From: Forficula auricularia
Taxonomy: Eukaryota > Arthropoda > Insecta > Dermaptera > Forficulidae
NCBI GenBank assembly: GCA_024734495.1
Contig: JALMQS010000841.1
Coordinates: 4,458,176 to 4,522,175, forward strand
DNA: 64,000 nucleotides
Direction of reading: 5' to 3'
Every line of letters starts with the position of its first letter. Position 1 is the stretch's first letter. This document shows positions 10,782 to 61,545 of this stretch, piece after piece. The notes under the pieces are model-generated. The model did not search any database. It was not told the DNA's origin and saw only the letters and a list, made by a program, of their open reading frames with translations. The position numbers and the translations under genes are program-made.

Positions 10782-10816
10782 GACTATAGTTTCAAAGATT
10801 AGACCTTCATCTTCAG
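10782..10816 (-). ncRNA. Hammerhead-like core (CTGAAGA...GAAAC TATA GTC)
   Basis: On the minus strand CTGAAGA is followed by T, a 6-bp stem allowing G-U (GAAGGT/ATCTTT, loop CTA), GAAAC, TATA and GTC. The order matches a type-I hammerhead with a minimal stem III. No clear stem I. Related to the pair at 15850-16060. Confidence 0.5.
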
Positions 10817-10829
10817 TCTTTCTTATATT

Positions 10830-11270
10830 TAGTTTCTATACATAAGTACTTTTCAAATGAAATGATTTACATTTTTAAAATTCCGGTTTCGATTGAAAGC
10901 TTCCTTCTGACTGTTTAATAATTAAAAATTAGGAAATTAACTCGTAGAATTAGAGGGAAAAACAAATAATTCATGTGGATATTTATTATAATTTTAGAGA
11001 AAGGTAAATTTAATTTACTAAACTTTTGTTGGAACTTCACCGAAGAAATTTAATTTTTCTTAAAATTTGTATTTTACTTAAGAAGATAAGACTTAGAAAA
11101 TTGTTTCAAAGAAAAAAATATTTATATTATTCAGAAGACACAAACTTGAATTTCTTTTTTCTACTTAAAAAACATCCAACACTGAATCACGAATACACAA
11201 AGATTGAAGATCAATGAGATACATTTCAAAAGTATTATTATTATTTTAGAGAAACAACGATTTGAATGAT
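10830..11270. other. AT-rich spacer
   Basis: No supported feature; short plus-strand frames here look like chance. Confidence 0.4.
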
Positions 11271-11274
11271 TGTA

Positions 11275-11640
11275 AATAGAATTTGATGTTCTGACAGAGG
11301 ACCCATGAAATATCCACACTTGCCGGTCAGGAAGTGGTTGGTAAATATAGTTGACGGCGACCAAAAGACGACGCCATTGAGCCGAATAAATGGACCAAAC
11401 CACGGATCGGGGGGGTCTCTTTGAAAGGGGCCCAGCCAGCCAGCCACCATACGGGCCTGATGGAATTACACTATACAAGCGACATCGAATACATTTTAAC
11501 GGGAAAATATGGCTTCCTAGAGAAAGCCAAGGGCTAATGGGGGTGGATACAAGTGCAAGGGTACGCACACAACACATAGGCGTAAATAATCTGATAAGCC
11601 CTGGGTTCCCTCTATGATAGCCGAGAACAGAAAGCACCAA
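11275..11640. other. GC-richer unique island 3, with a long minus-strand open frame
   Basis: A minus-strand frame of 159 codons (11161-11640) crosses this island. The protein has no motif I recognise, its C-terminal third is A/T-driven hydrophobic residues from the AT flank, and a 75-codon frame is open on the other strand. Locally raised GC explains the lack of stops. I treat it as non-coding unique DNA, possibly regulatory, and do not exclude an exon. Confidence 0.35.
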
Positions 11641-11867
11641 CTAAAAAATTATATTCTTTCAGGGTAAACTATTATTTTTTATTAAAATAAATCAAAAGAT
11701 AATGAAAGATACTCTCTAGGGATGATTGCTTTTCTTTGAAATATTTCCATCGCGTGCCAATTCGCTCTTTATCAATTGTGTTTTCATTTTAAATAAATAG
11801 AACCAATAAGCCATCATGACGAAAATATCCTTCTCACTCATATTCAAAGGGAAATTATATAATAAGA

Positions 11868-12290
11868 CTAGCTGCAAGGCCCGCCTTCGGTTGTCAGAAA
11901 TCACATCCCCTACAACTTTGTTTATCATAAAATTTGCCGTAGGGTTAATAGTTTAGGAGTTATTTGATAATTTTCATTCGTGCGCCCCCCCCCCCAAACC
12001 CCCTTCTGGAGTCAAAATATCAAAACGTTATATAGCTAAAAACGTAAGTTAGAAGAGCATCTGATGTAAATATGAAATTTCATAATAATCCCTTCAGCCG
12101 TTTTTACGTGAATAGTGAGCAACTTTTCGAAAACCACTGAAACATACAGACACACACACATACAGACATACATACAGGCAGGAATTTTGTTGAGGGTGTT
12201 TCCTTTCATAACTTTGCTTGAAACGTGTGCAACCAAAATTCGGCGTGATTTGGAGCAATGTACAGACAAAACCTTAATTTTATATATAAA
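11868..12290. repeat. Insect-type dispersed repeat fragment
   Basis: Starts at ACTAGCTGCAAGGCCCGCCT and proceeds through a C11 run, a CCCTTCAGCCGTTTTTACGT segment and an ACACAC/CATACAGA microsatellite. The opening phrase recurs at about 24272 and, inverted, at about 54880. Such 'AGCTG..GCCCGC' starts are common in insect Helitron- or LINE-related repeats; I cannot assign a class. Confidence 0.45.
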
Positions 12291-12472
12291 TATATAGATG
12301 TACAAATAAGTTTCGGCCGTTTGACAAAGCTGACGGTCCCACCAGTAAGTTATGATTAAAATTGTCAGAATTAAAACTTAATTATCGTAAGGTTGTATAT
12401 TTGTTAACAAAATAATCTTGAAATCTTAGTGAATTTTCATCAGTATATTATGTTTTTTTGTGTGCGAAAAAG

Positions 12473-12905
12473 TCGAGTTTTGAGCCGAATAAGCATCATT
12501 TGCGGGAGCTTTTGATTTACTTCTTCAAATTTGAAAAAATCTGCAGCTGAGGCGAATCGATTGCTTGTAGAAGCATATGGGGTGGCTGCCTTAAGTGAGA
12601 GAAGTTCCCGTGAGTGGTTTCAAAATTTTAAGAAGGGTGAATTTGATATCGAAGATAAAGAACGTCCCGGAATGCCTAAAGTGTACGAAGACGCGGAATT
12701 GAAAGCATACTAAGATTCGTGTCAAACGCTAGAAGAACTTGCACATACATTAGGAGTGACTCAAAAAGCAATTTCACATTGGTTGAAATCATTGGGAATG
12801 ATTCTAAAACAAGGAAATTGGGTTCCATATGAACTGACGCCGAGAAAGATTGAATGCCGATTTTTCACAAAACCGGTCAAAATCTTTTTGGAAACACTCA
12901 ATTGA
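12473..12905 (+). pseudogene. mariner transposase, N-terminal half, broken
   Basis: The translation follows the mariner DNA-binding region. It opens with SSFEPNKHHLRELLIYFF, whose usual initiator Met is replaced by Lys. After a frameshift near 12538 comes SAAEANRLLVEAYG, then WFQNFKKGEFDIEDKERPG. A stop at 12711-12713 replaces a Leu-rich junction, and the frame continues with DSCQTLEELAHTLGV, then KQGNWVPYEL, the mariner WVPHEL linker. Homology ends soon after and a stop closes at 12905. The catalytic DD34D domain is absent. It carries one frameshift, one internal stop and a 3' truncation, so it is dead. In an intact element this half binds the terminal repeats. Confidence is high for mariner and moderate for subfamily. 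Confidence 0.9.
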
Positions 12906-13139
12906 GAATTTAATCACATGCCAAATGTAATGTTTCTAGATTTATTATTTTAGAAAACTACAGTCCTGTAACCTGTAACAGAGAGCACAGATGGACAACA
13001 ATCTCTCAAGATAAGAGCTCAGTTTTTATTGATTTTGCCACAACTCTAAAATTGTTGAATTCCACTCCTCGAGAGCACCAAAATAATTTGGAGAAAAGAA
13101 GCAGAAGATATAAATATAATTTGATGTATATAAACTGAA

Positions 13140-13400
13140 CATGTTTACTAACAAACAGGCACTATCTCCCTAGAGGTTTAGCAGTTGCATTCCGTTGAGA
13201 TAGACGGATGACAGTATCCCGTATCTCCCTTCGATTTCATTAATCCATTTCAAGGGGTGATCGCGATATAAACGAAATTCGACCAGGTGTTTTGATTAAC
13301 CCCCTAAGCTTTTTCTAAAAGCTTTTCTCTATCCCCCGGGCGTGCTTATGCTCCCCTTATCAGTTTCCGCTGGAAATATATAATAAAATTCCAAATCACG
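13140..13400. other. GC-richer unique island 4
   Basis: Non-repetitive, with segments such as GGGGTGATCGCGATATAAAC and CCATTTCAAGGGG. No ORF. Candidate regulatory DNA only. The next 390 bp up to the MITE hold nothing recognised. Confidence 0.3.
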
Positions 13401-13792
13401 AACTACCTATACTTTACTCGGAAATCGGCACTTGGTAATTTAAAATTAGAGTGGGCAGTTTATTAACGGGTGTATCTAAACTACGTTGATCAATTCAACC
13501 TTCGGAAGACTGAATAGTTGAAAGCCATTTAGTCTAATTAATTGATTTGAAATACTTATCACAAGTGCTAATCATCTATTTATTATAAGGGCCCTCAGCT
13601 CATAACATGCGATATTAGGTATTTTCTAATAAATACTAAATTACTATTATTATATACGTTAATTCCCATCTAAATTAGATTAAATCTCTATATTGACATT
13701 TTGTGATCTGGTATTCTTCAGTTTGAGCTACCAAGAGGGTGTTGACAGCTGACCAATAGGTAGGTTTTATATGGTATATTTGTAAGTACCTA

Positions 13793-14183: not shown

Positions 14184-14185
14184 TA

Positions 14186-15657: not shown

Positions 15658-15694
15658 GCCCTGAAGAAGTCAACAATGTTGACGAAACGTTGGC
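15658..15694 (+). ncRNA. Hammerhead-like motif (GCC-CTGAAGA...GAAACGTT-GGC)
   Basis: CTGAAGA (15661-15667), a linker A, a perfect 6-bp stem II GTCAAC/GTTGAC with a 3-nt loop, GAAAC (15684-15688), then GTT and GGC. The GGC pairs with the GCC just before the core as stem I. Downstream sequence (AAAAGTTTTTGTTTTGCCGA to about 15766) recurs as a 50-bp insertion at 30837. Confidence 0.6.
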
Positions 15695-15769
15695 AATAAA
15701 ATATAAATTTAATTGAAAAGTTTTTGTTTTGCCGAGAGTAGCAGAGTTGTTGATTCACTAAGAGAGTTA

Positions 15770-16146
15770 GTCCTCTGCTTGATGCAAATAAACATACACA
15801 CATATATATCGAAATTATATATCTGTATATATATTATTTATTTGTTTGAGACTATAGTTTCGAAGACTTGGTCTTCATCATCAGTCTTTTTTAATTATAA
15901 ATATTATTTTTCATGGGGTCAATATCTTTAAAATTTTAACTGGCCCCCAGCTAAGTAAATTTCGAAAAATTTCATTATCCATATGGTATTGACCCCATGA
16001 AAAATAATATTTATAATTAAAAAAGATTGATGATGAAGACCAAGTCTTCGAAACTATACTCTCAAACAAATAAATAATATATATACCTACAGATATATAA
16101 TTTCGATATATATGTGTGTATGTTTATTTGCATCAAGCAGAGGACA
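15770..16146. repeat. Fold-back element with two hammerhead-like cores
   Basis: Arms of about 150 bp (15770-15920 and 15997-16146) are inverted copies; the outer ends read GTCCTCTGCTTGATGCAAAT and its inverse. Each arm carries one core: minus strand at 15850-15884 (CTGATGA, T, GAAGAC/GTCTTC stem, GAAAC, TATAGTC), and plus strand at 16027-16060, where the first base is T instead of C. The loop is about 75 bp. Confidence 0.75.
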
Positions 16147-16246
16147 ACCTCTTTGTTTCACTTTGTGAAAATATAAATTATTTGCATAAAAAATATAATT
16201 CTTATTTCCCTATAACAATTTTAATAATTTAATCGATGGACATAAC

Positions 16247-17946: not shown

Positions 17947-17965
17947 GTGACATGTAGAATTTAAA

Positions 17966-18330
17966 TTTTATAAATTAAAGGGTTTATTTAATCACATAAA
18001 ATAAATAAATAGAGTAATTTTAATCAATTTTCATTATTTAATTGATCGATTTACCAGACAGTTTCGGTCACTCATGGTTGACCATCTTCAGTAGTACTGA
18101 AAATTGAAACATTTTCTAAAAATTTTTTATATAATTACACAAAATAAAAACCATACAATTTCGTTCAAGCTTTGGAATTTGTCACTATTCAGTCTGGATA
18201 CATAGCTCATTCTTAATTTATTAACATGGATATTTCAATAATCGATAAAATAAATAATGATAATAATTGATTAAAATTACTCTATTTATTTATTTTATGC
18301 GAATAAATACATCCTTTAATTTATAAAATT
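17966..18330. repeat. Fold-back element, hammerhead family B
   Basis: Inverted arms (about 17966-18040 and 18250-18330) share AAATAAATAGAGTAATTTTA and its inverse. The minus strand carries a hammerhead-like core at 18052-18096. A relative, heavily interrupted, occupies 19690-20640. Confidence 0.7.
18052..18096 (-). ncRNA. Hammerhead-like motif, family B
   Basis: Minus strand: TACTA, CTGAAGA, T, stem II GGTCA/TGACC with an 8-nt loop, GAAAC, TGTC, TGGTA. The flanks TACTA and TGGTA can pair over 5 bp with G-U as stem I, and GTC sits at the cleavage position. Confidence 0.6.
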
Positions 18331-18448
18331 GTTTCTAATTCAATGTAAATCTCTCCCACATGCTTTTTTTTATTAGGTATAAAAATATGAATTAAAAACT
18401 TTATATCTGAATTACTGAGCACTCTTAAAACTTTTCAAGTTATAATAG

Positions 18449-18724
18449 AATAAAGTACAGAAAATTTTTTGGAAAATGTTATTTTTGGAACTTTTTCAAA
18501 TTTATTTTTTATTAATATAAAATACTAGGTAGGTTTCACATAAATAAAAGATCGGATGCTTGTTTAGCACGACTCAATATATATATTTCGGGGTATAAGC
18601 CCATCTTAAGGAGATCACAAAGGACACTCTTTTATTTATGTGAAACCTACCTAGTATTTTATATTAAAAAAATATTTGATAAAGTTCCAAAAAACATTTT
18701 TCAAAAAATTTTCTTTACTTTATT
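18449..18724. repeat. Fold-back element, hammerhead family C
   Basis: Arms inverted around 18590, with a core pair ACTAGGTAGGTTTCACATAA (18526-18545) and its inverse (18636-18655), extending outward with mismatches. A degenerate core (CTTAAGA, GGG/CCC stem, GAAAT) lies on the minus strand at 18572-18613 with flanks CTC/GAG. Confidence 0.7.
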
Positions 18725-19690
18725 TAATATGTTTCACCAAGAACCTACACCATTCTCCTTAAAAAAATTATAATAGAATTCTACATAGATTAATCCCAAC
18801 CATTTCAAAATATTTAAAAAACTGCTAAAACTATTATAAGAAAAAATTCAAACAACTTATAAGAAATTCTTATACAGTGAAGTTGGAAAAAAATATTAAC
18901 ACCTGAAGAATTGTACATAAATCAATCAATCAATTTTGTAAATTTGTGATGGAAATTATTACAATTAAATGATTATTTGTTATTTTATTTATTAAATATT
19001 TATTTCAAAGTATATTCCTCTAAAATATTGATTTTTAATTAATTAGGAAAATCTAAGTGAAAATCGTTTGACGCACACGCTAGTTTTTTAAAACAATCTC
19101 CAATCAATTGGGCATGTCTTGAATACGTTTATATTTTATTTACAATTATTTTCTTTTCTGATATCTAATCAAGTAACGGGATTCTTTTCCCTTTAGTCTG
19201 TTTTTCGCATTGAAATGCATTGATTTCATTCGGAGTCAAACAACCAGCGGGGCAAGTGCTTATTAATATTGGTGTTTTATAGGTGTTGCGTTTTGTGTAT
19301 TTTTGTTGACTAGTGCATTTTGGAGAATTGTTCAAACCTTCACGAGAGACAAGGTAAACATTTAAATGCAATTTTTTAAATCTTTTTGGATAATATAGTG
19401 ATTCCTAAAATAAATTTCAATACTTTCCGCATGCTTCACATTGAATAAAGTAAAAATTCAGATCATTTCTATTCTAGTTAATATTTTATAATAGAATATA
19501 AATAAAAGGAGAAAATTATTACAAATACATCAGACATTTGCTAAATAATTGTGAAATATAAGTCCGCTTTTATAAAATAAATTGTTGTTGCAGAAAGAGT
19601 GTTAAGTTTTTCAGACTTTCCGTAAATCCAGCTAGAGCCGTCCTACTAATCAATTTAAATAAAAAATTAATATACTCGTATTATTACTTT
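18725..19690. other. AT-rich spacer
   Basis: No supported gene. The 68-codon minus frame at 19165-19371 is unrecognised. Confidence 0.4.
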
Positions 19691-19812
19691 TAAATTGAAG
19701 GGTTTTCTTAGTCACAATCTAATAATAGACAATGATTTCAGTTAATTATTATTATTTATTTTATTGATTCACCAAATAGTTTCGGTCACCTCTGGTTGAC
19801 CAACTTCAGTAG

Positions 19813-20057
19813 TAACAGGTGAACCGTGACCTAATATGTTGTACACCTACTTCCACTTGTACTTCAAAATATTTCCAAGTACTTCCAAATATTTCCAAGT
19901 ATTCCAAATATTTCCAAGTAATTTCAAATATTTCCAAGTAATTCCAAATATTTCCAAGTACTTCCAAATATTTCCAATCACTTCCAAATATTTCCAAGAA
20001 CTTCCAAAATACTTCCAAATAGGTGTACACCTACTTCCAATCGCGGATCACCACTCG
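19813..20057. mobile_element. Minisatellite-bearing TIR element, copy 1
   Basis: Terminal motif AGGTGAACCGTGACC at the left and TCGCGGATCACCACTCG at the right. The core is a tandem array built on the 10-bp consensus TAYTTCCAAR, mostly in 20-bp dimers (TACTTCCAAATATTTCCAAG). The same layout occurs at 41240-41549 and 59558-59783. Open frames of 74-88 codons on both strands are by-products of the periodic repeat. Confidence 0.8.
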
Positions 20058-20139
20058 ACTGTATGTATAAATTCAAACTTCTATATTTTTTGTATTGTGT
20101 AATTGTTTAAAAAATTTACAAAATATTTTATTTGTTAAT

Positions 20140-20414
20140 TAAAGGAATCGTAGGGGAGTTGGACAAGACTTTAAATTAAATTAAATACAAGTTTTGATTA
20201 AATATGCCATACGTTTCGTTGCTATTTTGCAACTTCTTCAGTGGCTCATTTATTAAACTTATTTGTCAGGATTTTTTACTACGAGAAAAAACATTTCAAA
20301 CAATATTCTTTTTTTCTATCACAATTCATTCAACTCATCAACTAACATAAAATATAAACTTTTAAACAAATTAATTGTTTTTTATCAAAAAACTAAAAGA
20401 ATCAAATTGAACAA

Positions 20415-20450
<36 letters not shown>

Positions 20451-20512
20451 TTAATCAAAACTTGTATTTAATTTAATTTAAAGTCTTGTCCAACTCCCTA
20501 CGATTCCTTGAA
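20140..20512. repeat. Family A hammerhead-like element with inverted ends
   Basis: Inverted ends (GGAATCGTAGGGGAGTTGGA at 20144 and CCAACTCCCTACGATTCC at the right) continue about 60 bp inward. The minus strand carries GCCA-CTGAAGA, A, stem GTTGC/GCAAC, GAAACGTA-TGGC at 20206-20245; GCCA and TGGC pair as stem I. A T run of about 30 (20420-20449) lies near the right arm. Confidence 0.7.
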
Positions 20513-21059
20513 TTATTAATCATGGACACGAATAATGAAATATTTTATTTGTCTATTTTTTAAAACTACTGAAGATAGTCAACCAGAGGTGACCGAAACT
20601 GTTTGCTGAATCAATAAAATAAATAATTTTGTTAAGTGAGAATGGTGTGGGTTCTTGGTGAAACATTTTAAATAAAGTTAAGAAAATTTTGAAATTTTTT
20701 TTAGAAACTTTTTAAATATTTTAAATTTTAAAAAGTTTCTAAAAATTTTTTCTATTGAATCCTCTCTGATTTCGGAATTTAATAATATTTCTACTAAAAT
20801 CTTAGAATTTGTCCTAAAGATTAAATTCTTTCTCTTCTAATAATACTAATATAATTTCTGTTTTTGTTTCAGGTAAGGAGAATCTTTTGAGTATTTCTGC
20901 CCAATCCTTCTCTGTTCTTAAGGTAATTATTTCTTAATATTTTGGTTTAAAGGCCACATAATTTGTTACTAGAAAATAAACAAATTATTGAACTTTGACA
21001 ATTAGTTATTTGGAGAAAATGATTTTAAACCAATTATTTGTTTACATGAGGTATAGTAC

Positions 21060-21589: not shown

Positions 21590-22310
21590 TAGTAGTTACT
21601 AGTATTTATGTGATTTTAAATATCTGGAATTTTATTAGCTAATTCAAATAAATTCTGCTCTCTTAGCTCGAAAATAAAATTATACTAATATCAGTTTATG
21701 CTTATTAACCACATCATGTAATTATCCCTCAAACCATGATCTTGGTCTAATTCATTTAAGCCCAAATTCACTTATAAAACTCGATTCCGAGATTAATCAA
21801 TTCATTCAAATTAAAATTCCAACACATTCTATTTAAAATCAAACCAATATCTGCGATTTAATTTTTTTTTAATTAGATTGGAAGGCATTTCGATTGGATT
21901 ATTTTCCAATATCTCATTCATTTATTTCAATGCAATTTTCTCCAATGTTTCTCTCATATGTTATTCCAATATATCTTGTAACATATTTTTTATATGTGTA
22001 TCAAGGACAAATCTTCTTCTAACTCATTTTTAATAAAATAACTTGATACAAGTTTTTATTATCCCAATACTTTTATTAAAAAACAAAAAGATACAAATGT
22101 TTGAAGCTTAAAAATGAAAAAAAAATCCCCGAGTAAGTTCATTTCAATGTAAAATTAATATTTATTTTTGATTTAATCATAGAACGGTAAATTGATGTTT
22201 TGATTTAATAATTTTTTTATTCTGGATTTTTTTAATTGATTTAATATAATTTACCATTAGATTTAATATTTTACTTAGGGAAAGTAGTAGGTTTTAGGTG
22301 AAACATGATA
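21590..22310. other. AT-rich spacer
   Basis: No supported feature. Confidence 0.45.
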
Positions 22311-22313
22311 TTA

Positions 22314-22556
22314 ATTGATAAAGTAAAGGGAGTGTAGTTTCACAGTTAATGAAATAAAACTCAAAGAGGTTTACACAAACTCAATATATTTCGGATTATT
22401 AGTCGATCATCAGGAGTTTACAGATTACAAACTGTTTTTAATCTGTAAACTCCTGATGATGATGGACTAATAATCCGAAATATATTGAGTTTGTATAAAC
22501 CTCTTTGAGATTTATTTCATTGACTGTGAAACTACACTTCCTTTACTTTATTAATT
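22314..22556. repeat. Fold-back with paired hammerhead-like cores, family C
   Basis: Nearly the whole element is two inverted arms (22314-22430 and 22437-22556) with a loop of only a few bases. Each arm carries a canonical CTGATGA core: minus strand at 22377-22419, plus strand at 22447-22492. Outer ends are AAGTAAAGGGAGTGTAGTTT and its inverse. Confidence 0.85.
22447..22492 (+). ncRNA. Hammerhead-like motif with 6-bp stem I
   Basis: AAACTC (22447-22452), CTGATGA (22453-22459), a GGA/TCC stem II preceded by an extra TGAT, GAAAT (22477-22481), ATATT, GAGTTT (22487-22492). AAACTC and GAGTTT are perfectly complementary. The sister motif in the other arm lacks the extra bases but has a weaker stem II. 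Confidence 0.6.
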
Positions 22557-30518: not shown

Positions 30519-31330
30519 CAGGGGTGTCCAACCCTTTGGCTTACACGGGCCATATTTGAAGAAAAAAAATTCTCTCCGACCGCGGATAAAAATTATAATT
30601 CAATTGATATTTGTTATTCTAAAAAGATAGTTAATAATATAGAAATAAGAACTTTATTATTTTTTTAACTCATAGTGAGCTTCTAATTTTACTTTTATAC
30701 TCGAAAATAGCTTCTCCTATATTTCAATAAAAACCTACATACTTACAAAAAGTGAAATTATGTATTTGAATTTGTTTATATTTTTTCCTCGCTAGATAAT
30801 TAATATAACATTCTAATAAAGAGACAATATTCAATTGAAAAGTTTTTATTTTGCCGAGAGTAGCAGAGTTGTTGATTCATAAAGAGAATATTCAATTTTT
30901 CTTAATTTTATGACTTTATATGGGCCACTGGTTGGACAGCCCTGGTTTAAATCGAATTGTATTAAAGAAGGATATGATGAATGATAATTTATTTTTTAAA
31001 AGGGTCACAGATATAATAATCCTTGAATATCCATTAACTATTGACATGTAAGACGTGCAAAGATCTAAAAGACAAGTCCTGACAAATTTTAGTCCGGGAG
31101 AGAAATTATCAATTAATTATGATTGTTCTAGAAAACCCCAATTCCTTGTTTATTTTTTAAAAGGGTCACGGATATTATGCCTGACTTTCCATTATCTATT
31201 GGCATGTAATAACCTGCAAAGATCTAAAAGACAAGTCCTGAAAAGTTTTAGTGCGGGAGAGAAATTATCAATTAATTGTGATTGTTCTAGAAACCCCCAA
31301 TTCCTTGTCTCCTGAATAATAAATATTTTA
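30519..31330 (-). mobile_element. hAT-like element related to 2521-3550, minus copy
   Basis: The left end CAGGGGTGTCCAACCCTTTG and an internal inverted end GGTTGGACAGCCCTG (about 30932-30946) bound the inner element. Beyond it come two tandem units as in 2843-3150, on the opposite strand (30990-31315). The far outer end is missing. A 50-bp insertion lies at 30837-30886. The 86-codon frame at 31055 spans the two units and is a by-product. Confidence 0.75.
30837..30886. mobile_element. 50-bp insertion with 11-bp target duplication
   Basis: AATATTCAATT occurs at 30826-30836 and 30887-30897, on either side of a 50-bp segment containing TTTGCCGAGAGTAGCAGAGT. Related element copies lack the insert. 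The same 50 bp follow the hammerhead-like motif at 15658-15694. Confidence 0.75.
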
Positions 31331-34659: not shown

Positions 34660-34990
34660 ATTAAATGGAAGGCAGTCCAAGGATAAATAAAAATATAATT
34701 CCCAATAAAAGCCGTTTTGGAACATCATGCCTTTTCTTGAGGGTTCAAAGGGTCAATGAAGGAAGCATATAACAATATCCCATCTTGTCCCATTTTTCAG
34801 TCCTCATGGGAGTTGAAGGGATATTTCTGGTATTGTCATCATCAATAGAATGATTAATGAATCCTTCAGTGATCATTTGAAGCCTGAAGAAGAAGGGAAG
34901 ATCCTTCGAAACGTCGGTTAAGTTTTTTCTTTTTAAATCATTGATTCAGAATGTACCATAAGATAATTTTGGGGGTCTAAATTTTAAAAT
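34660..34990 (+). repeat. Family E hammerhead-like element
   Basis: Starts with the GGAAGGCAGTCCAAGGATAA segment also seen at 40907, 52768 and 54167. A core at 34882-34917 reads GC-CTGAAGA, AGAAGG...CCTTC stem, GAAACGTCGGTT. Stem I pairing is poor. No ORF. Confidence 0.6.
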
Positions 34991-40620: not shown

Positions 40621-40893
40621 AACTCGTAAATTTTTTAACTACTGTTAGAATTTTCTTAGAGTTTGTAAATTTATTATTAACTTTTTTATGCCAATAGTTT
40701 TTAATTTTTTTCTTTTTTTAATTATCAAAATTGAAAAGTTTTTACACTTGAAAAAGTTTACCTATCTGACTGACTTTATGTTGCTTTATTAGAGTAGTTT
40801 TTCTATTCTTGATTAATTATATACCTGTGTATATAATTAAATACAAATTTTATTTTATTTATTTTCTTAGAAAGACGGACTGGTAAGCGAAAT

Positions 40894-41146
40894 AAGTAGA
40901 TTATAATGAAAGGCAGTCCATAAATTATTTAAATTTTTATTCAAATCCCGACGTTTCGGAGACCTTTTCTCTACTTCTTCAGGGTATTGAATAGTTATTG
41001 ATGGGTGAGTATAACTCGGCTCCCATATATTCACCCATCAATAACTATCCAATACCCTGAAAAAGGAGAGAAAAGGTTTCCAAAACGTCGGAATTTGAAA
41101 AAAATTTAAATGCTTTATGGACTGCCTTTCATTATAATCTACTTAA
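40894..41146. repeat. Family E fold-back with paired hammerhead-like cores
   Basis: Two inverted arms of about 115 bp meet at 41018-41025. Outer ends are TAGATTATAATGAAAGGCAG and its inverse. The minus-strand core at 40946-40985 has CTGAAGA, an imperfect stem, GAAACGTCGG. The plus-strand core at 41056-41090 has lost G12 (AAAAC), so it should be dead. Confidence 0.78.
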
Positions 41147-41239: not shown

Positions 41240-41549
41240 CGAGGGGTGATCCGCGATTGGAAGTAGGTGGGTACACCACACCTCTTTGGAAGTATTTTGG
41301 AAGTACTTGGAAATATTTGGAAGTACTTGGGAGCATTTGGAAGTGCTTGGAAATATTTGGAAGTACTTAGAAATTTGGAAGTACTTGGAAATATTTGGAA
41401 GTGCTTGGAAATATTTGGAAGTACTTGGAAATATTTGGAAATACTTGGAATTACTTGGAATACTTGGAAATATTTAGAAGTACTTGTAAATATTTGTAAG
41501 TGTAACTGGTAGTAGGTGTACAGCATATTAGGTCGCGGTTTACCCCTTG
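41240..41549. mobile_element. Minisatellite-bearing TIR element, copy 2 (largest)
   Basis: Starts CGAGGGGTGATCCGCGATTG and ends TCGCGGTTTACCCCTTG, an inverted pair. Flanks GCTGCTTT (41232-41239) and GTTGCTTT (41550-41557) match at 7 of 8. The core is CTTGGAAATATTTGGAAGTA-type repeats in the opposite orientation to the other two copies. Frames of 63-100 codons on both strands come from the repeat. Confidence 0.85.
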
Positions 41550-43789: not shown

Positions 43790-46080
43790 TATTTATTTAT
43801 TTATTTATTTATTTCAACGGCATGTGCCTTTAAAAACATTACAAAAAGTAATACAAAGAAACACTACTTAGTAAAAAGTAGAGAAAAAAACAATAATGTT
43901 AAACATACAAATACTAAACAACAATACAGAGTAAATCAGATATAATAATTATGATAGTGAGTATTTAAATATATGAAAGTGTGTTTATTTTTATAATTCT
44001 AGACATTCTGTTGGTATCTATAGTAAAATTCAAAACGCATGTTTTTTGGGAAAGGGCGTTATAAGCGATGCTTAATCTATAAATAGGGTTGGTTTCGGAA
44101 TGACGTGTAAATGGAACTGGTGGATAGAATGGTTGATTCTGTCGTAGTGGGTACGAGGGATTGTTCAGTGGAAAAAGAATTTTAAGCTCAGGACAACGAA
44201 TGGCATCAGACATAATTTTAAAAGTGAATAAGTTGTCGGAAGCAATCATAGACGAAAGAATAGTTGACATGTCGAAAGTTTCAGCGATTTTCAAGTAGTC
44301 ATGATCGTATCTAGACATAGGGCTACCAGAGAGAGACGCCAGATGTCTCAAAACTTTATGCTGAATTCTTTCAAGTCTAGCTATGTTGGTTTTTAGATTC
44401 GGTCTCCAGATTGTTGAAGCATACATTACGACAGATTTAATCAAACTTATGTATAGGTATCTGATACAATTGGGGCTCCTAAAAGCTTTAGTGTTGCGAA
44501 ATATGAACCCCCAAGTTCGGTTAGCTTTACTAACCACATGATTAATATGTTCATTAAACGTGAGCTTTGAGTCAAAGGTGACACCAAGGTCTTTGATTGA
44601 AGTTACTCTAGTGCAATAAGAAGTATCGTCCAGATAGTAATTGTATGAGATAAAATATTCCTTTTTTGAGAATGAAATGGTGAAGCATTTGTCAAAATTT
44701 AGAAAAAATAAGTTTGCTTTGCACCAGATAGTTAAGTTTTTTAGGTCGGATTGTAGCTTGTTGCAGTCTGAAACTTTAGAAATGTCAAAAAACAATTTGA
44801 TATCGTCTGCGAATAGCAATATATTGCAATGTTGAGTTACATTGACCAGGTCATTAATAAATAAAAGAAACAATAGGGGACCAATGTGGCTACCCTGAGG
44901 GACCCCAGAGGGTGCTAAGAATTGTTGGGATACCGCGCCATTGATTCGGACGATTGAATATCTATCGGAGAGATAATTTCCAATCCATAGAATTATATTA
45001 GTTGGAAGATTAAAGTACTTAAGCTTTAGCAACAAAATTTCATGATTGATGAGGTCAAAGGCTTTTTTAAAATCAAGGTAAATAGCGTCGAGTTGTGTAT
45101 TTTTGTTAAGGCTGAGGAAAATAGAATTTGTGAATACAGTAAGATTAGTGACAGTTGAACGAGAATGTACAAATCCATGCTGTTTACTGGAAATCGCATC
45201 AGAGCAAATTAAAAGAATCTTGTTGTACATAATCTTGTCTAATAATTTTGGTATCGCACTTATTATAGCTATTGGTCTGTAATTTCTGATGTTATTGCGT
45301 GAGCCACTCTTGAAAACGGGAGTAATAAATGATTTTTTCCATAGTTCAGGTAGAAATTTTTCTTCGAGAGAGAGGTTGAATAATATAAGTAAGGGTTTAA
45401 TAAGAGACAAAGAACAGTTTTTGACTATAAAAGCAGGTACACCATCAGAGCCGACGGTGAGAGAGGGCTTCAATTCCTTTAATGCAGTGATTATTTCTTC
45501 CTCGGAAATTGTAATTGGAATATTACTAGCATGTTTATCGGGGACTAGAGTATTTGCACAATAGTTGGCAATAGTGTCTGAGTCAAATGTTACATTTGTT
45601 GTAGCCAAGCTATAGACATTTTTAAAGAATTCAGCAAAAAGATTGGAAATCTGTGCATCATTGGAGCCATTGAATTCATCGAGGAACATGCTGAAGGATA
45701 TCCCTTTGTGCCCCTCTTGCATTAATGAAGTTCCAGAAGATTTTTATATTGTTTGGCACATTAGATTCAATATTTGAAATATAGGTAGAATAACAAAGTG
45801 TGGCCTCGGCTTTACACAGAGACCTTAAAGTTTTTGAAATCATTATAATTTGTTTCACTCTGATTACTCTTGTAATTCTTATGGGCAATTTTTGTTAATT
45901 ATTAGCGAAATAAGTTTCTTAGAAAACCATGATGGATATCCAGCACTATTGCAATGCATTTTGAGGCATGTTTCTGCTATGAGGGACATTATTATATCAT
46001 AAAACCTCGTTACCGCAGAAGATAAATCTAAATTACATAAAGTGGTATTCCAATCAATTTCTTCAATTTTTGACTAAGGA
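43790..46080 (-). mobile_element. Degraded jockey/CR1-type LINE, 5'-truncated
   Basis: The 3' end is an (AAAT)n tail (plus-strand TTTA repeat at about 43790-43813). Going upstream on the minus strand come a short 3' UTR, the reverse-transcriptase frame (43965-45722), and in other frames the linker before it: KIEEIDWNTTLCNLDLSSAV then FYDIIMSLIAETCL then GYPSWFSKKLISLI (about 46070-45890), then SNVPNNIKIFWNFINAR (about 45770-45710). At least two frame changes interrupt it. No intact endonuclease was seen above about 46100. Confidence 0.85.
43965..45722 (-). pseudogene. LINE reverse transcriptase (long open frame, partial ORF2)
   Basis: 585 residues. RT motifs are in order: a finger/template region (KSGSRNNIRNYRPIAIISAI, residues 138-157), HGFVHSRST (182-190), motif A AIYLDFKKAFDLINH with catalytic D217, GVPQGSHIGPLLF (273-285), motif C LLFADD with D306 and D307. 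The thumb and a C-terminal region (RLERIQHKVLRHLA, later SRYDHD) follow. No RNase H domain, as in jockey and CR1 elements. The apparent start Met is not native: coding homology continues upstream in another frame (FWNFINAR), so a frameshift near 45700-45720 separates them. RT catalysis is intact by eye, but without a joined endonuclease the element cannot be autonomous. A related C-terminal piece is at 55540-56017. Confidence 0.9.
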
Positions 46081-46475: not shown

Positions 46476-46550
46476 TAATAAATAATTAATTAATCTTCAA
46501 TCATAAATTAATAATTTTTGAAAAGCTTATTGAATATAATTTTTGTTTTT

Positions 46551-47118
46551 CAGAGGATGAGGAACAAAATAAGTGTTTATTTACGCCTTATCAATTGCAA
46601 CGTTTCGCCACTTTTATTGCAGCTTCTTCAGGCTCTACAAAGGAGCAAATACATATATCAAAAAAACACATTCAAAAACAAAAATTCACCCAACTCAAAA
46701 TCAATTTCATATAAGTATACCTTGATAAATAAAGCTCCAAACACTTTGTCAATTTTTTTAAGCTCTGCCATTATTATACATACAGACAGATAATTTTACC
46801 AGTGAAATTGCAAAAGTTATAATTGTATATTTTTTGATATTGGTGTTTTTGAGTTGTTGATGATAAAATAGAGATGTATTCGAGTGTCTGTATGTATAAT
46901 AATGGCAGAGCTTGAAAAAATTGACAAAGTGTTTGGAGCTTTATTTAACAAGGTATATATGAAATTGATTTTGAGTTGGGTGAATTTTTGTTATTGAATG
47001 TGTTTTTTTGATATATGTATTTGCTCCTTTGTAGAGCCTGAAGAAGCTGCAATAAAAGTGGCGAAACGTTGCAATTGATAAGTCGTAAATAAACACTTAT
47101 TTTGTTCCTCATCCTCTG
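46551..47118. repeat. Family F fold-back with paired hammerhead-like cores
   Basis: Arms of about 245 bp (46551-46797 and 46880-47118) are inverted; ends are CAGAGGATGAGGAACAAAAT and its inverse. The minus-strand core is at 46597-46633, the plus-strand core at 47036-47073: GC-CTGAAGA, A, GCTGC...GTGGC stem, GAAACGTT-GC. The loop is about 80 bp of A/T. The 91-codon frame at 46518 is incidental. Confidence 0.82.
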
Positions 47119-47204
47119 AAATACAAAAATTACATTAATAAATTATGGAACTGAATCCCAATGATGACTTATTGAATATTTATTTCTAAATATTATAAAT
47201 TATA

Positions 47205-47425
47205 ATACATAGCGTCCTATTTATTCTCATTTCAATGATAGCCAAAAGTTTATTACACAGGAGTTTTTTGACGGGTTATAGTGGTGTTTCACACTTTTGT
47301 TAACCTCCTGAAGAAGGGCTCGTAACCCGAAATATGTATAGAGATAAATAAAAAAATCTCCAAAATATAATTTAAAATTTTTTTTAATTTTTATTTCCTC
47401 TTTGTGACACACCACTTGTTCGTTT
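47205..47425 (+). repeat. Family C hammerhead-like element, single copy
   Basis: Contains the core at 47305-47343, then GAGATAAATAAAAAAATCTC and TCCTCTTTGTGACACACCAC, which recur near 50510-50590. A related TTTCACTATAAATCAACACC phrase occurs at 47607. Confidence 0.6.
47305..47343 (+). ncRNA. Hammerhead-like motif with AUA at the cleavage position
   Basis: CTC, CTGAAGA (47308-47314), stem GGG/CCC with loop CTCGTAA, GAAAT, ATGT, ATA, GAG. CTC and GAG pair as stem I; AT...AT closes a 2-bp stem III around ATGT. Confidence 0.6.
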
Positions 47426-48518: not shown

Positions 48519-49238
48519 CATACAGGGTATGGTCAAGTATTGTAATCGTACATGAAAAAAGTGGTTTTTTTTCCTTCTTTTTTTTCGAAATATCTCAAAA
48601 ACGGCTGAAATTATTTTGATTAAAAAAATTGAGCAAAACCATGGCATTTCGCTCTACAAAAAAGCCCTAATAAGTGAACATCGAAAAAATTATATTTTTC
48701 GAGATAATAATTGTTTTGTCAAAATGTCTGTTAGTTTGGTCGTCTGTTTGTCCGTTCTGTGCGTTACCAAATTTTTGTGAACGAGCTAGCTCATAAATTA
48801 GCGGGAATATTGAAACCAAATTTCACACGTAGTTTTGGTCCATTGAGATTAAGAGCTGATTAGATTTTGGTGCATATCGACCCAAAATTAAGGGGGGTGG
48901 AGAGGGGGTTAAAAATTAAAAATCTAGCCCATTTGAGCAAACTCAACCAAATTTTGTATACATAATCAATGGGACCCCAGAAGTCTAAAAATGCAAAAAC
49001 TAACCGCCCAAAATGGGGGATGGGGGAGTGTATGGTCAAAAAATGAAAATCTAGGCTCTTGTACCAAACTCAACCAAATTTTGTATACATAATCAGTGAC
49101 GCCCCAGGAGTCTAAAAATGCAAAAACTAACCCCCCTCCCCTACATGATTATAAATAATTTTATTAAATATTAAATATAAGTGAGGGGCCAGGTTGTATG
49201 GTAAAGTCAAGTGGATGGCCACATCAGAACACGTCAGC
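48519..49238 (+). repeat. R-family repeat, longest copy, 9-bp TSD
   Basis: Begins CATACAGGGTATGGTC, ends GAACACGTCAGC, flanked by TTATTTTAC at 48510-48518 and 49239-49247. No terminal inverted repeats and no ORF. It contains two tandem units of about 125 bp, each with CAAACTCAACCAAATTTTGT and GTCTAAAAATGCAAAAACTA. Other pieces: 4431-4910, 33985-34134, 36493-37063, 59857-59936. Confidence 0.82.
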
Positions 49239-50499: not shown

Positions 50500-50735
50500 A
50501 TTAGACGAGATAAACACGTTTACGAAATATATATAAAACTAAAAAATCTTTGTATTTAATTTTCTCCTTGTGAAACACCACCAACTCCAACCTAATTTAA
50601 TTTTAACAATGTTTCACTATAAACCAACACCGCGTTCCCTAAATTTTAGAGATAAACACGTTTCGAGGGTATTTACCTCAGATTTTCATCAGTGCACGCC
50701 CGTGCTCTTTTTGATGTTTGGTGTTCAGAATCTAA
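50500..50735. repeat. Family C-like element with a minus-strand hammerhead-like core
   Basis: Holds a CTGATGA...GAAAC core on the minus strand at 50655-50697 (stem GAGG/CCTC), plus phrases shared with 47205-47425 (TCTCCTTGTGAAACACCACC). Stem I is weak. Confidence 0.45.
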
Positions 50736-51344: not shown

Positions 51345-51346
51345 CA

Positions 51347-52265
51347 TATAACTCTATGGTAACTTTATTTTTGAACCTTCAAATGTGACACACTAGCCCA
51401 ATTATCAAAAAAATTAGTAAGCATTTTGTATAGTCTGGAAATGGAACTATGTATTAAAAAAAAACTGTATGTACTATATTAGAAATGATATCATTGTGTG
51501 TGTATCAAATACTGAGGCCAGATATGAGAAGGTAATTTCAGAAAAACATGCACATGCGTGAATTTTTGAAATTTATTGTATGACTCTTAACTGTTTCTTA
51601 CTAAATTAATTCAACAACATTTTACACAAAGTGTTTTTTCATTTATTTTTACGATTTAATATCTTTGATTAATTGATAGATCTCATAAGAATTTGTAGAC
51701 ATTTACAGAGATCTTTGGCTTGGTCGAAGTATAAGCATAAATAAAAACATTACTAATATCCGATTTAAACTAATATGTACAAATGTTTTATTTTGTAGAT
51801 ATGTAGGTAATACATCCTAGAGAATGTTAAACATCGTTTTCGAAATATTACTCTTCCCAGTTACTAGTGTAAGTTCCTCAATTTAGATGCTAAATCTAAA
51901 TAATTATACTGTTAGGTGTAAAAATATATTCTTTTTCTCGTGTTTATGGATCATAGCTTTAATTAATTAGAATTGGCTTCCGAGATACGTTTATCAAATT
52001 AAATAAGAATATTTGAATTAAAAGAGGCTACTTTAGGTGAATATCAGGGGTCGGCCGTTATTTGTACAGGCTATGTCAACCAGAGTCCGAGTTCTAGTTA
52101 AGTTATAACAATAAACACATGTTGCCTAAGCCCGGCTTAGTGTAGGTATATACAAGGCTAAAACTCTATGGTAATTTTATTTTTGAACCTTCAAATGTGA
52201 AAGACTCGCCCAGTTAGCAAAAAAATTAGTAAGGAGTGGAACTATGTATTAAAAATTGTATATAC
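51347..52265. repeat. Direct repeat pair (51347-51480 and 52158-52265)
   Basis: Both copies run AACTCTATGGTAACTTTATT / AACTCTATGGTAATTTTATT, then TTTGAACCTTCAAATGTGA and AAATGGAACTATGTATTAAA / GAGTGGAACTATGTATTAAA, the second with a deletion. The 680 bp between hold no gene. Confidence 0.7.
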
Positions 52266-52280
52266 TTGTGCACAGAAATG

Positions 52281-52490
52281 GCGGGAATTGGACAAAATTA
52301 AAAACGCAGAGTTTTTATTAAATGAGCCAGACGTTTCGTCAATTTATTTTGACTTCCTCAGTGGTCCATTTTATCACTCTTTGTCAAAATGATAAAATGA
52401 GCCACTGAGGAAGTCAAAATAAATTGACGAAACGTCTGGCCCATTAAATAAAATCTCTGTGTTTTTAATTTTGTCCGATTCCCTGCTATT
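52281..52490. repeat. Family A fold-back with two hammerhead-like cores
   Basis: Arms (52281-52374 and 52390-52490) are inverted around 52382; outer ends are GCGGGAATTGGACAAAATTA and its inverse. Minus-strand core at 52326-52365, plus-strand core at 52401-52450. The arms differ at few positions. Confidence 0.85.
52401..52450 (+). ncRNA. Best-formed hammerhead-like motif
   Basis: GCCA (52401-52404), CTGAGGA (52405-52411), linker A, stem II GTCAA/TTGAC with loop AATAAA, GAAAC (52439-52443), GTC (52444-52446), TGGC (52447-52450). GCCA and TGGC form stem I; GTC is the classical cleavage triplet. Stem III is reduced to at most one or two pairs. Confidence 0.65.
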
Positions 52491-52554
52491 CCTGTTACAC
52501 ATTTACTATGAATGGGAATGATACAACATTGTATATACTAGTTTAGAAGCAATT

Positions 52555-52735
52555 TGAAGTTAAATAACGTAATCAATAATTTATTGTGTTAATTCTACAT
52601 AATTATTTAGAAAATTATTTTATTATTTTTTGAAAAGGAAAAATGAATTAAGCACCCGACGGGATTCAAACCCGTGTCTCTCATCTCCTTTAGTCGAAGA
52701 GCGCCTTTACCAACTAGGCCAACGGATTTTAAAAA
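52555..52735 (-). mobile_element. tRNA-derived SINE, family 3
   Basis: On the minus strand the head reads TGGCCTAGTTGGTAAAGGCG (A box), an anticodon-like arm CTCTTCGACTAAAGGAG, and a T arm ACGGGTTTGAATCCCGT followed by CGGGTGC. The body is the same as the arms of 38935-39233. The 5' acceptor strand is missing. Confidence 0.75.
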
Positions 52736-57320: not shown

Positions 57321-57321
57321 A

Positions 57322-58112: not shown

Positions 58113-59557
58113 GTAAATTATTTATTAAAAGTATATGTCTGGGTTGATTTTTTAAAAAATTTCCATCATTTTTCAAAAAAGAAACGCAAAAAATGCTTAA
58201 ATCTTTGCATTCATTATTTAAAAAAAAATTATTGTTTAAAAAACAAGCATAAAGACAAAAGTGTGTTTTTTAGTTTTTATAAACTATAATTTATTTTACT
58301 TTTAGTTTTAATAAAATATATTTTATTCCAATTATATTGGCTGGCAAAATGGGTGTGTGCCCGATGCCAATAAATAATATAAAAAAAAAATTTTATTCCA
58401 ATAGTCTTATTAAGACTAAGATCATGGGAACCCCTGCAGGGTAGGCTTCTGAAATCCACCAACGTCAATTCGATTGCGTATGTTACAGGATTTAATGGAT
58501 AATTAAGAAATAATGAATTTCAAAAAAAGATTTTCTAATTTTGTTTTCATACAGACATAGTTAGTTTGTTAGTTACATACAAGTAAAGCTAATAATAAAA
58601 GCGTGTTAATAAGCCGGCCAAGTGCGAGTAGGTCTCACCGAGGTTTTCGCACCTTATATCTTCCAAAATACTTGAGATATCAAATTCTTTTTTATTTGTC
58701 ATTAATAAAGAGAGAAAATTAAATTTCTCCAATTTTTAAAATAATTTTAAGATAAATAGTCATTTTTAAACTGACAAATACAAAAGTCACCAAAGCTCTC
58801 TCACATAGTCATTTTGTATTATACCATAGATAAAAATATTATATATTATTATAGATATTCATAAAATAATAAAATTTTCATATAAAAATCGAAGAGAGCT
58901 GTTATTTCTAATAAAATAGTCTCATAATTAAAAGGAGTATTACTGTATTATTATTATTATTAATTACTAATTACTAATGGGCCAAAGATTAAGAAGGTCC
59001 TTTCTCTCCAGATGAGTCAAAAGAAGTGTAGTATCTAATATTTAATAAAATAAGTTAAAATACAAATGAAAAATAATAGAATTAAAAAATAAATAGTATG
59101 AAAGCCGTAAATGTTTGAAATAAAAACAATTATAAAAAATAATTAAATACAAGAGTTAGTTTGATTTATTCAAATCAGCTGATAATAACTCTTGTGTGAT
59201 TTGGCAATACGTTGTATTACTACTGTATATGTTTACATCCAAACATAGCATTTATGTGATTTTTAAAGTAAATATCTCAGTAAATTCGACGGTCAATGAT
59301 ATATTTTATTGCAAAAAAAGAAACTTACATGTTTCAAAAAGCTAATTTTTAGTTTGTTTTTTTAACTTTATATAATCAACTAATAGTAGTATAATTCAAG
59401 AGAAAGTGTCAAGATCTTAATTTTCCATAAGACTAAGAAAATTTTACATTTTAAAATTTTTATTTTCAAAAATTTGCACGCTAATGTGTGATTGAAACTT
59501 CACCAAAGCATATATATAGACTTAAACTATTGTAAAAAATTAAGTTATAGTTATAAT
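58113..59557. other. AT-rich spacer
   Basis: No gene. AAGCCGGCCAAGTGCGAGTA at about 58612 is a phrase common in insect dispersed repeats, but no boundaries can be read. Confidence 0.4.
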
Positions 59558-59783
59558 CGAAGGGTGAACCGCGACCTAATATGCTGTACACCTTCTTCCA
59601 CTTGTACTTCCAAATATTTCCAAGTACTTCCAAATGTTTCCAAGTACTTCCAAATATTTCCAAGTAATTCCAAAATTTTCCAAGTAATTCCAAATATTTC
59701 CAAGTACTTCCAAATATTTCCAAGTACTTCAAAAATACTTCCAAAGAGGTGTACACCTACTTCCAATCGCGAATCACCCCTCG
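59558..59783. mobile_element. Minisatellite-bearing TIR element, copy 3, 8-bp TSD
   Basis: Starts CGAAGGGTGAACCGCGACC, ends TCGCGAATCACCCCTCG, with perfect flanks GTTATAAT (59550-59557 and 59784-59791). The core is TACTTCCAAATATTTCCAAG-type repeats. The frames of 71-120 codons across it are repeat by-products. Confidence 0.9.
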
Positions 59784-59856
59784 GTTATAATCTAATATTT
59801 TTTATTTTACATTGGCGGCGAAAGGACCTCCTTAAGTGGGGGGTTATTTCCTAAAT

Positions 59857-59936
59857 AATTATTTTATTAAATATTTAATATAAGAGAGGGGCCATGTGCA
59901 TGGTAAAGTCATGTGGATGGCCATATCAGCTTATTT
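59857..59936 (+). repeat. R-family 3' end only
   Basis: TTATTAAATATTTAATATAA, GGTAAAGTCATGTGGATGGC and the end ATATCAGCTTATTTT match the last part of 48519-49238. Confidence 0.65.
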
Positions 59937-60079
59937 TCTTTTGAAATTATCCTCCTACAAAGGTCCATGCTCATAAACTCTCTATTACTATGCAAATTGT
60001 TTTTTTATTATGCACAGATATTTATTTGGACATACACCTTGATGATATTTAAAAGTCTTATGACTTTTTTGTATTTCTC

Positions 60080-60340
60080 TTATTAAAAGAATAAATAATT
60101 GAATAGAAGCCGACACAGAATAGAGACAAATGGGGCATTGGTCCATGTCAAAGGTGAACAGGCAATCTTTCGATCAGGATGGGGGATCGCTATTAGTTGT
60201 GCGCTGAAGAAATGTTGGGGAGCAATCGAGCGGAAGAGTCTCGTCAATTGTGACAAACGGACCGGAGCAAAATAAATAGACACCTACGCAACTAGCTATG
60301 CTTATTAAAAGGAAATTGAGAGGAAACAAGCGGAAAAAGA
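60080..60340. other. GC-richer unique island 13
   Basis: No repeats. The 66-codon minus frame at 60083-60283 is unrecognised. Candidate regulatory DNA. Confidence 0.3.
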
Positions 60341-60417
60341 TGCACGGTTAAAAAAGTTTTATTAGTTCCGATAAAATATTGCTAAATATTTTATTCTATA
60401 AAATAGACATTGCAATA

Positions 60418-61011
60418 TTAAGGGAGTTCGAGACAGCTTATCTATCTGGTTGATCTACGAAAAAATCTTTTGTATTTCTGCAGAGTGACAACATCTGCCT
60501 ATTAAATTAAAAAAGATTGTTAATAATGAGGTTAATTTCGAATAAAAATCTTTCTTTTGATAATATTAATAAAAAGAATATTGAGATAATTTTTTTCTCA
60601 TTATAAAAATATTTATTTAACACAAAAACGGTTTCGAGAAATAGAGTTGGAATTCTACACTAGTGCTTTTGTTATATTCTGTTAACTTTTTATTTTTACA
60701 TTTATGAATAACTAATTAACTAGACTGTCAAATCTATTGAAAAATATATCGTTCGATTTATAAAAGTTGAATTATTGATCTGTATAAATTTCTTGAAAAT
60801 GGTATAATTTGTATAGAAGTTATAGCTCTTTTAAAAGCTCGGTCCATTTACTTCCATGTTAAAAGGACAATTTTCAATCATTTATTTCTCGGTAATGAGA
60901 CAGACGATCAACTTCAAATTTCAGGAATAAATATTTAATACATCAATGATTCGATGGTAAACATTTGAGAATTTTCTTATAAAAATGATAAACAGTCCCG
61001 AACCCCCTTAA
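60418..61011. mobile_element. TTAA-bounded element, type c, copy 3
   Basis: Starts TTAAGGGAGTTCGAGACAGC, ends CAGTCCCGAACCCCCTTAA; collinear with 17347-17946. Confidence 0.88.
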
Positions 61012-61374
61012 AAGCAAGAGCGATCTTAGCTATACAGGGTGTTTAGAAAATGGATTCCAAGACTTCAGGGCGTGATTCCCCACATCAAAATTAGATGAAA
61101 AGATCCAATATACATAAAAAAACGTTTCGTTTTGTATCTTGAGAACGGATGTAGATATCTTTATGAAATTTGGTACACATGTATTTAACTACATTATCTA
61201 CTATTTAATAAAATACCTAAATTTTACCTTGAAAATTTTCAAAATGTCGGCCATTTAAAATTTTAATTGTGAATAACTTTTTAATCTTTCATTTTATTTC
61301 AATTAGTATTATTAGATATAATTTTATCCTTTTTATTGTGATCAAAAGGACACCTTATTTTTCAAGATCCTATA

Positions 61375-61545
61375 TTTATTTATTTTTTGACTTCTTCAGT
61401 GGCTCACTAAATGACTCAATTGTCTGATGTTATTGAGTTAGCCGTTGAAGAAGTCAAAAAATAAAACAACGAAACGTTTGGCACATTAAAATTCGGTTTA
61501 TAATAATTTAATTCTTACCCAATTCCCTACGATTTCAATTAAAGA
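61375..61545. repeat. Family A hammerhead-like element, degraded
   Basis: The plus-strand core at 61441-61482 has GCCG-TTGAAGA (C3 changed to T), stem GTC.../...AAC weakened, GAAACGTT-TGGC. The inverted half at 61388-61410 keeps only GACTTCTTCAGTGGCTCA. Confidence 0.6.

Follow-up and report, generated by a model that had tools for sequence, protein, structure and literature searches.

Hammerhead cores in short inverted insertions probably made by Penelope-like retrotransposons in the genome of Forficula auricularia

A stretch of 64,000 nucleotides from the genome of Forficula auricularia (G000:C751:4458176-4522175), referred to here as the window, contains scattered hammerhead-like cores. Judged from sequence comparison, these cores are very probably the hammerhead ribozymes of GIY-YIG Penelope-like elements (PLEs), a class of retrotransposon, and the repeats that carry them short insertions of pseudo-long terminal repeats (pLTRs) made by these elements. 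The element class is already known; the scale is new, as are two rules, namely, that one of the two inverted arms of an insertion carries a tail (one-tail rule) and that arms can start at the predicted ribozyme cleavage product (cut-site rule). A literature search covering titles and the openings of abstracts listed no paper in which the ends of PLE insertions are traced to hammerhead cleavage sites; absence from print is not claimed.

The original prediction had listed 21 core positions in the window. All 21 have a CTGANGA-like box followed by GAAAC or GAAAT, and the match is exact at 16; single changes are present in the cores at 16027, 18572, 19770 and 61441, and the core at 41056 is altered in both halves. 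The claim that stem II is complementary throughout was borne out for the 15 cores recovered by a descriptor that allowed at most one mismatch and required at least three flush stem II base pairs, and not for the six that were missed (20564, 22377, 40946, 41056, 50655 and 61441). Restricting the descriptor to an exact CTGANGA gave 11 matches in the window, whereas 20 dinucleotide shuffles averaged 0.4 (maximum, 3). When one mismatch was allowed, there were 29 matches; the shuffles averaged 9.65 (maximum, 14) and the reversed window gave 6, indicating that some of the loose matches are due to chance. The genome-wide motif search (1.06 Gb) that had been proposed detected 125,817 CTGANGA...GAAAC matches on the two strands (62,652 and 63,165), while the reversed pattern gave 6,440 (3,246 and 3,194), an excess near 119,000. 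The observation of scattered hammerhead-like cores was confirmed. What the prediction had missed was that most of these cores lie in outward-facing inverted arms of single insertions.

The cores have CUGANGA and GAAA arranged around three helices, of which stem III is short. An extra base is present between CTGANGA and stem II in 83 of 86 matches from 264 kb (the window and loci L009 to L028), the other three matches fitting two bases; among the 75 exact matches this base was always A (n = 42) or T (n = 33). Pairing in stem I, which was not part of the pattern used for finding copies, was scored over 20 flank clusters that are partly related and not fully independent. The mean was 2.35 bp, compared with 0.97 bp for shuffled partners (maximum, 1.95 in 2000 shuffles), and pairing of at least 3 bp was observed in 10 of the 20 clusters (shuffles: mean 2.0, maximum 7). 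These pairs argue that the cores are more than one string inherited by simple descent, which had been named as the finding that would overturn the idea of a selected hammerhead structure across several repeat families, and they lend support to that idea. For most of the 20 clusters tabulated, stem III was AC(GT), ACTATAGT or AT(AT)nAT, with one cluster having no pair. Its pairs are AC/GT or AT/AT, closed by a short loop or by none, and the stem is mostly self-complementary, as would be expected for ribozymes acting as dimers. Minimal type I PLE hammerheads with little or no helix III, thought to be active as dimers, have reportedly been described by Lunse, Weinberg and Breaker in 2017 and by Cervera and De la Pena in 2014. 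Stem III of the present cores is reduced to about two pairs or is missing, and the cores are predicted to be minimal hammerheads of this PLE type. A distinct branch has GAAAT with an AT..AT stem III instead of GAAAC with AC..GT; it was detected at 18585-18610, 22377-22481 and 47308-47333 of the window and in loci L013, L018 and L023, and could be linked to no PLE open reading frame (ORF).

A search for Penelope-like ORFs with reverse transcriptase and GIY-YIG domains, also proposed with the prediction, found a partner with identical cores. Scores were obtained for 150 of 3423 first-look candidates; all 150 were above the cut-off, and their open frames ranged up to 864 aa. Three GIY-YIG matches at C563 lie 2908 to 2909 bp apart, and locus L034 was taken from there. 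This locus has an 858-aa ORF with RVT_1 (1.6e-16) and GIY-YIG (8e-6) domains and consists of tandem units 2909 bp apart, with a core in both successive units. It has, that is, the attributes of a GIY-YIG PLE: both domains in one ORF and a tandem arrangement with repeated pLTRs. The L034 core is letter-identical to the window core at 15857-15884. Identity to the L034 pLTR was 88 to 99% for the best-matching copies, 90% for the window copy and 75 to 85% for older copies. A core was present downstream of the ORF in six of six further sampled GIY-YIG loci (GAAGAC family, four; GAGGGC, one; GCTGC, one), and the core and adjoining bases of the GCTGC locus are identical to those of the family at 46602 and 47038 in the window. 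A PLE ORF was traced for the GAAGAC (by alignment) and GCTGC window families, the remaining window families being untraced. The statement that no protein-coding partner is visible is therefore correct inside the window and fails for the genome, where PLE ORFs were found elsewhere. Nor are all families unrelated in their surroundings, as had been stated: the GAAGAC and GAGGGC tails have common sequence.

An inverted partner arm was found for 15 of the 21 window cores. Minus-then-plus order was observed in 24 of 34 neighbour pairs less than 600 bp apart in the window and 20 loci picked around listed matches, in 16 of 21 pairs within the same distance among the matches listed genome-wide and in 4 of 7 pairs less than 1000 bp apart in a contiguous 114 kb (the window and L029 to L033). 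For cores outside outward pairs, a partner arm, often 5'-truncated, was present in 19 of 38 cases. Outward inverted arms are a known PLE signature, and the window copies have the form of PLE pLTR insertions, with inverted pLTRs of which one is tailed and a short target-site duplication (TSD). Exon-like frames of BPTF/NURF301 are found among these insertions in loci L018 and L019, which indicates that insertions occur within or beside a host gene. Among few named matches, the L019 exon was closest to those of insects (Timema tahoe, 79%; Ranatra chinensis, 75%; Lygus hesperus, 68%).

The one-tail rule was derived from insertions with TSDs, which are usually 11 to 15 bp long. Removal of doubles and of cases with no 9-bp match reduced 73 core copies with a partner arm to 44 rows; 31 of these had a match of at least 11 bp, and the 13 rows with matches of only 9 to 10 bp were excluded from the count. 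All 31 insertions had arms of unequal length, with differences of 22 to 68 nt in 30 and 151 nt in one, although part of the 31 matches, including that of the 151-nt row, is AT-rich and could have arisen by chance. Matches of at least 11 bp were observed in ∼13% of 400 random pairings. Placed on the L034 PLE, the ends of the arms fall at the start of the ORF, close to 731 for short arms and to 778 for long ones, and the near and far end points are mostly 30 to 50 nt apart. At a further 20 junction sites, read by eye, one short and one tailed arm were present in all 20 (in L055 the short end enters an AT repeat; the element of locus L054 is also present in L028), and a TSD of 11 to 16 bp was consistent with the ends in 16. 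Independent choice of a site by each DNA end would give unequal arms in at most half of the insertions. It is as if each DNA end uses a different start for reverse transcription, and the rule bears on how PLEs handle the two DNA ends.

Many core-less arms begin at the first base past the predicted hammerhead cleavage site. In a selected sample, the start of 6 of 26 truncated arms coincided exactly with the predicted cleavage product (expected, 0.23); counted by insertion, this was 4 of 19 (p ∼3e-4). These 26 arms were hand-picked from families with an unambiguous cut position, for a length and identity of at least ∼45 bp and ∼85% and for starts up to +120. Dropped from the sample were families with an AT..AT stem III, arms of low identity (for example, L014 +27, L018 +44, L022 +38, L027 +16 and L027 +78), two short GAGGGC-family arms (+61 and +65) and, from the window, 30888 (+126) and 16168, at the second of which an interrupted arm resumes. 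A looser anchor scan was dominated by AT-rich chance matches and was not used. Genome patterns were then applied to head-to-head junctions whose anchors are no more than 30 bases apart; such patterns favour short inner arms and no single base. They detected 1214 sites for the GAGGGC family, 172 for GAAGAC and 11 for GGAGGG, and none with reversed controls. The first 50 GAGGGC sites listed (of 1214) have 100 arms, of which 47 begin at base 35 and another 16 at base 36. Among those listed for GAAGAC (50 of 172 sites), the corresponding numbers were 43 and 10 of 100 arms, with 2 at base 34, none at bases 24 to 33 and 20 without extension past the anchor. For GGAGGG, with all 11 sites used, 11 of 22 arms start at the cleavage product and 8 sites have such an arm. 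Genomic ends at the predicted GUH site were thus found in three pattern families and in one arm of a fourth. At the junctions the arms may meet bluntly (AACGA/TCGTT), overlap (AACGTT), be separated by filler or share TCG. In the GAAGAC family there were 24 distinct centres in 35 listed sites with a cleavage-start arm, arguing for independent events. Insertion ends at a predicted cut site are evidence from the genome itself, and arm starts at the cleavage product suggest that hammerhead cleavage occurs in vivo. Repeated cut-site-like junctions were also seen, with centres at G000:C5:9766777 (AACGATCGTTATAACGATCGTT) and C4:3507888 (AACGTTATGTCGTTATATCGTT), as if a third short complementary DNA (cDNA) had been captured.

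The unequal ends bear on two other origins for the inverted form. Short, inverted, TSD-flanked repeats with variable centres would fit DNA transposons resembling miniature inverted-repeat transposable elements (MITEs), with the hairpin motif incidental to their terminal inverted repeats; the ends left by cut-and-paste should match, yet they were unequal in 31/31 and 20/20 cases, the sequences match PLE pLTRs and the arms are truncated independently, making this origin barely credible. Self-priming (snap-back) of a single cDNA has been proposed for the PLEs of Adineta vaga in the available part of the report (PMC3846280), and near-palindromes are present at many centres here. A cDNA copied back on itself should, however, share its 3' end between the arms, whereas only one arm was tailed in the same two sets, and the arms often begin at different points. 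Snap-back is distinctly unlikely, and both it and the DNA transposon were rejected on the unequal ends.

The remaining alternatives concern the arm starts and the shared centres. A reverse transcriptase stalled at a folded but uncut hammerhead could mimic cleavage, and the commonest GAGGGC-family junction does have one arm ending near the base of stem II, which could reflect such stalling or joining by microhomology. If stem I were the obstacle, however, synthesis should halt 3' of it and not between base 1.1 and base 17; the position is the same in spite of differing family sequence (TCGTT, TCAAAC and GGTTTG), and the stretch from base 24 to base 33 was empty of starts in all 100 listed GAAGAC arms. 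Stalling is considered unlikely. One centre is common to 19 of the 50 listed GAGGGC sites, as it would be if an old inverted copy had multiplied as a unit and its centre had been inherited. Against such copying, the side of the tail varied (4 against 9) among 13 fetched sites with this TCG-sharing centre, so that descent of these sites from a single unit is unlikely, and 37 distinct centres were present in the 50 listed GAAGAC sites; very little probability is given to it.

Insertion by a PLE with paired priming may be pictured as follows. PLE RNA would be transcribed from tandem pLTRs, and the PLE enzyme would cut both target strands. Close to the beginning of the ORF there would be two start sites, each of them used for priming by one of the DNA ends. 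Each cDNA would then extend to the 5' end of the RNA, either at a palindrome near the transcript start or at the end left by hammerhead cleavage, and the two cDNA ends would be joined bluntly, with filler or via a few bases of microhomology. It is likely that the hammerheads work in the animal and determine the 5' ends of the RNA that is reverse transcribed, that each insertion uses two fixed priming sites, one per side of the DNA break, and that the ribozyme is a variant with an extra base before stem II. The inserted copies themselves are taken to be by-products rather than functional ribozymes, since RNA transcribed from them would form a single long hairpin.

Several observations weigh against this reading. 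The extra base departs from the canonical hammerhead, stem II not following directly after A9 in 83 of 86 matches; insertions of at most one or two bases occur there in known hammerhead alignments, in the part available of PMC10085705. No match was obtained in the whole window with Rfam at gathering thresholds, and no hammerhead was present among 99 Rfam matches with E<=10 for the segment 52290-52480, the best of which were microRNA-hairpin models because the whole insertion is one long palindrome. The fit of stem I is poor for the cores at 10789, 34884 and 50660. Near-equal arms were observed in two of the 13 rows with weaker TSDs (9 nt at L013:6438 and 6 nt at window 18061); these, and another of the 13 with a difference of 173 nt, were taken as chance matches. 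The 20 junction sites and the six GIY-YIG loci are small, chosen samples of the 1214 counted and the 150 scored, respectively. For 19 of the 47 GAGGGC arms that start at base 35 the position is ambiguous by up to 3 nt, as the arm meets cDNA run through the core with TCG common to both. About two thirds of the examined arms keep the core, in loci that were mostly chosen by their cores, indicating that cleavage is not obligatory. In the accessible portion of the report on a lizard PLE, the hammerhead cut only with protein, ribozyme mutants were still able to insert in vitro and no RNA sequencing (RNA-seq) reads ended at the hammerhead site (PMC11167929). Together with the core-keeping arms, these results suggest that cleavage is probably not required for insertion.

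Flanking duplications were detected on eight window insertions, six with a TSD of 12 to 15 bp and two with weaker repeats of 9 to 10 bp. The inverted solo-pLTR insertion at 15710-16167, of the GAAGAC family, has TSD AAAATATAAATT at 15698-15709 and 16168-16179, a long, tailed left arm and a short right arm. Its cores are at 15857-15884 (−) and, with C3 changed to T, at 16027-16054 (+). It sits inside an older GTCAAC-family element, splitting an arm whose core is at 15661-15688 (+); when its flanks were joined with one TSD copy, they aligned across the join with L014 and L017, which are uninterrupted relatives. The GCTGC-family insertion at 46538-47167 has TSD CTTATTGAATAT at 46526 and 47168 and cores at 46602-46631 (−) and 47038-47067 (+), the core being the same as in PLE locus L036. 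The insertion at 52267-52527 (TSD ATTGTATATACT at 52255 and 52528) has cores at 52333-52361 (−) and 52405-52433 (+), and the predicted fold of 52240-52560 is a single hairpin (−163.6 kcal/mol; z −22). At 40849-41142 (TSD TTAAATACAAAT at 40837 and 41143), C3 is at 40982 (−) and 41057 (+). One arm (18628-18767) of the insertion at 18452-18767 is 5'-truncated; the TSD is TTATAATAGAAT, at 18440 and 18768, and the core at 18585-18610 (−) has the AT..AT form of stem III. The insertion at 19664-20666, with C3 at 19809 (−) and 20569 (+), is flanked by a 10-bp repeat, TTTAAATAAA (at 19654 and 20667), which is weak alone. Nested within it is an inverted insertion at 20136-20537 with a core at 20213-20241 (−), a truncated partner arm and TSD AAATATTTTATTTGT at 20121 and 20538. 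A 9-bp repeat, also weak alone, is present at 22257 and 22556 on either side of the inverted insertion at 22266-22555, which is of the GAAAT/AT..AT type with C3 at 22413 (−) and 22453 (+).

The core at 18061-18091 (−) has a truncated inverted partner arm at 18240-18330 and no clear TSD, and the single core at 34884-34912 (+) has a diverged (74%) inverted match, at 34713-34789, to the arm of another family. No partner arm was found for the single core at 10789-10816 (−), which is ∼84% like the L034 PLE over 56 bp, for that at 47308-47333 (+), with a GGG/CCC stem II and an AT..AT stem III, for the weak core at 50660-50692 (−), in which stem II is offset, or for the degenerate core (TTGAAGA) at 61445-61475 (+).

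Other repeats and one coding frame were detected in the window. A 592-aa open frame at 43965-45743 (−) encodes a reverse transcriptase of the long interspersed nuclear element type (RVT_1, 2.4e-28); it is 61 to 91% identical to the three database entries that match best, and by Pfam it is not a GIY-YIG PLE. A unit of ∼160 bp, which has CTGACAA...GAAAT and lacks a hammerhead core, is present in two tandem copies at 2832-3150. Kin motif pairs, 159 to 160 bp apart, occur there and at ∼31079-31265 in opposite orientations. A 20-bp minisatellite (GTACTTCCAAATATTTCCAA or its complement) forms arrays at 19859-20018, 41286-41501 and 59604-59745, the first being located just 5' of the 19809 core within that element. 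A 127-bp unit is repeated 1.8 times at 48907-49136, with a G-rich stretch at the end. No core was present in any of the tandem arrays of the window, and canonical retrozymes were therefore rejected as a candidate.

If the reading of active hammerheads and paired priming is true, the genome would record both ribozyme cutting and paired priming at base resolution. Both rules can be checked in other PLE-rich genomes. The findings also carry a warning that TSD-flanked short inverted repeats can be footprints of retrotransposons even where they would readily be classed as MITEs. The closest resemblance in form is to Penelope of Adineta vaga (Arkhipova et al. 2013, PMC3846280), for which the available text describes inverted head-to-head pLTRs, solo pLTRs, 5' palindromes, a 31-bp tail on one inverted pLTR, TSDs of 8 to 10 bp and pLTRs that move other sequence in trans. 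That element is described there as having few copies and an "optional" tail, whereas more than 100,000 cores are present here, with one tail for each insertion with a clear TSD. Like the Poseidon element PAc of Anolis, as presented in the accessible sections of PMC11167929, the present PLEs have a GIY-YIG domain and a hammerhead at the junction of pLTR and ORF, and two internal start sites for reverse transcription with both DNA strands cut and extended would be common to both. The two starts of PAc were observed in vitro with no apparent difference between strands, and its RNA-seq was without reads at the hammerhead site, where genomic insertions begin in the present case. Metazoan retrozymes, in the portion available of PMC7229834, are likewise non-coding retroelements with type I hammerheads; those are short tandem repeats of canonical hammerheads with loop contacts, while the copies described here are inverted pairs with minimal cores.

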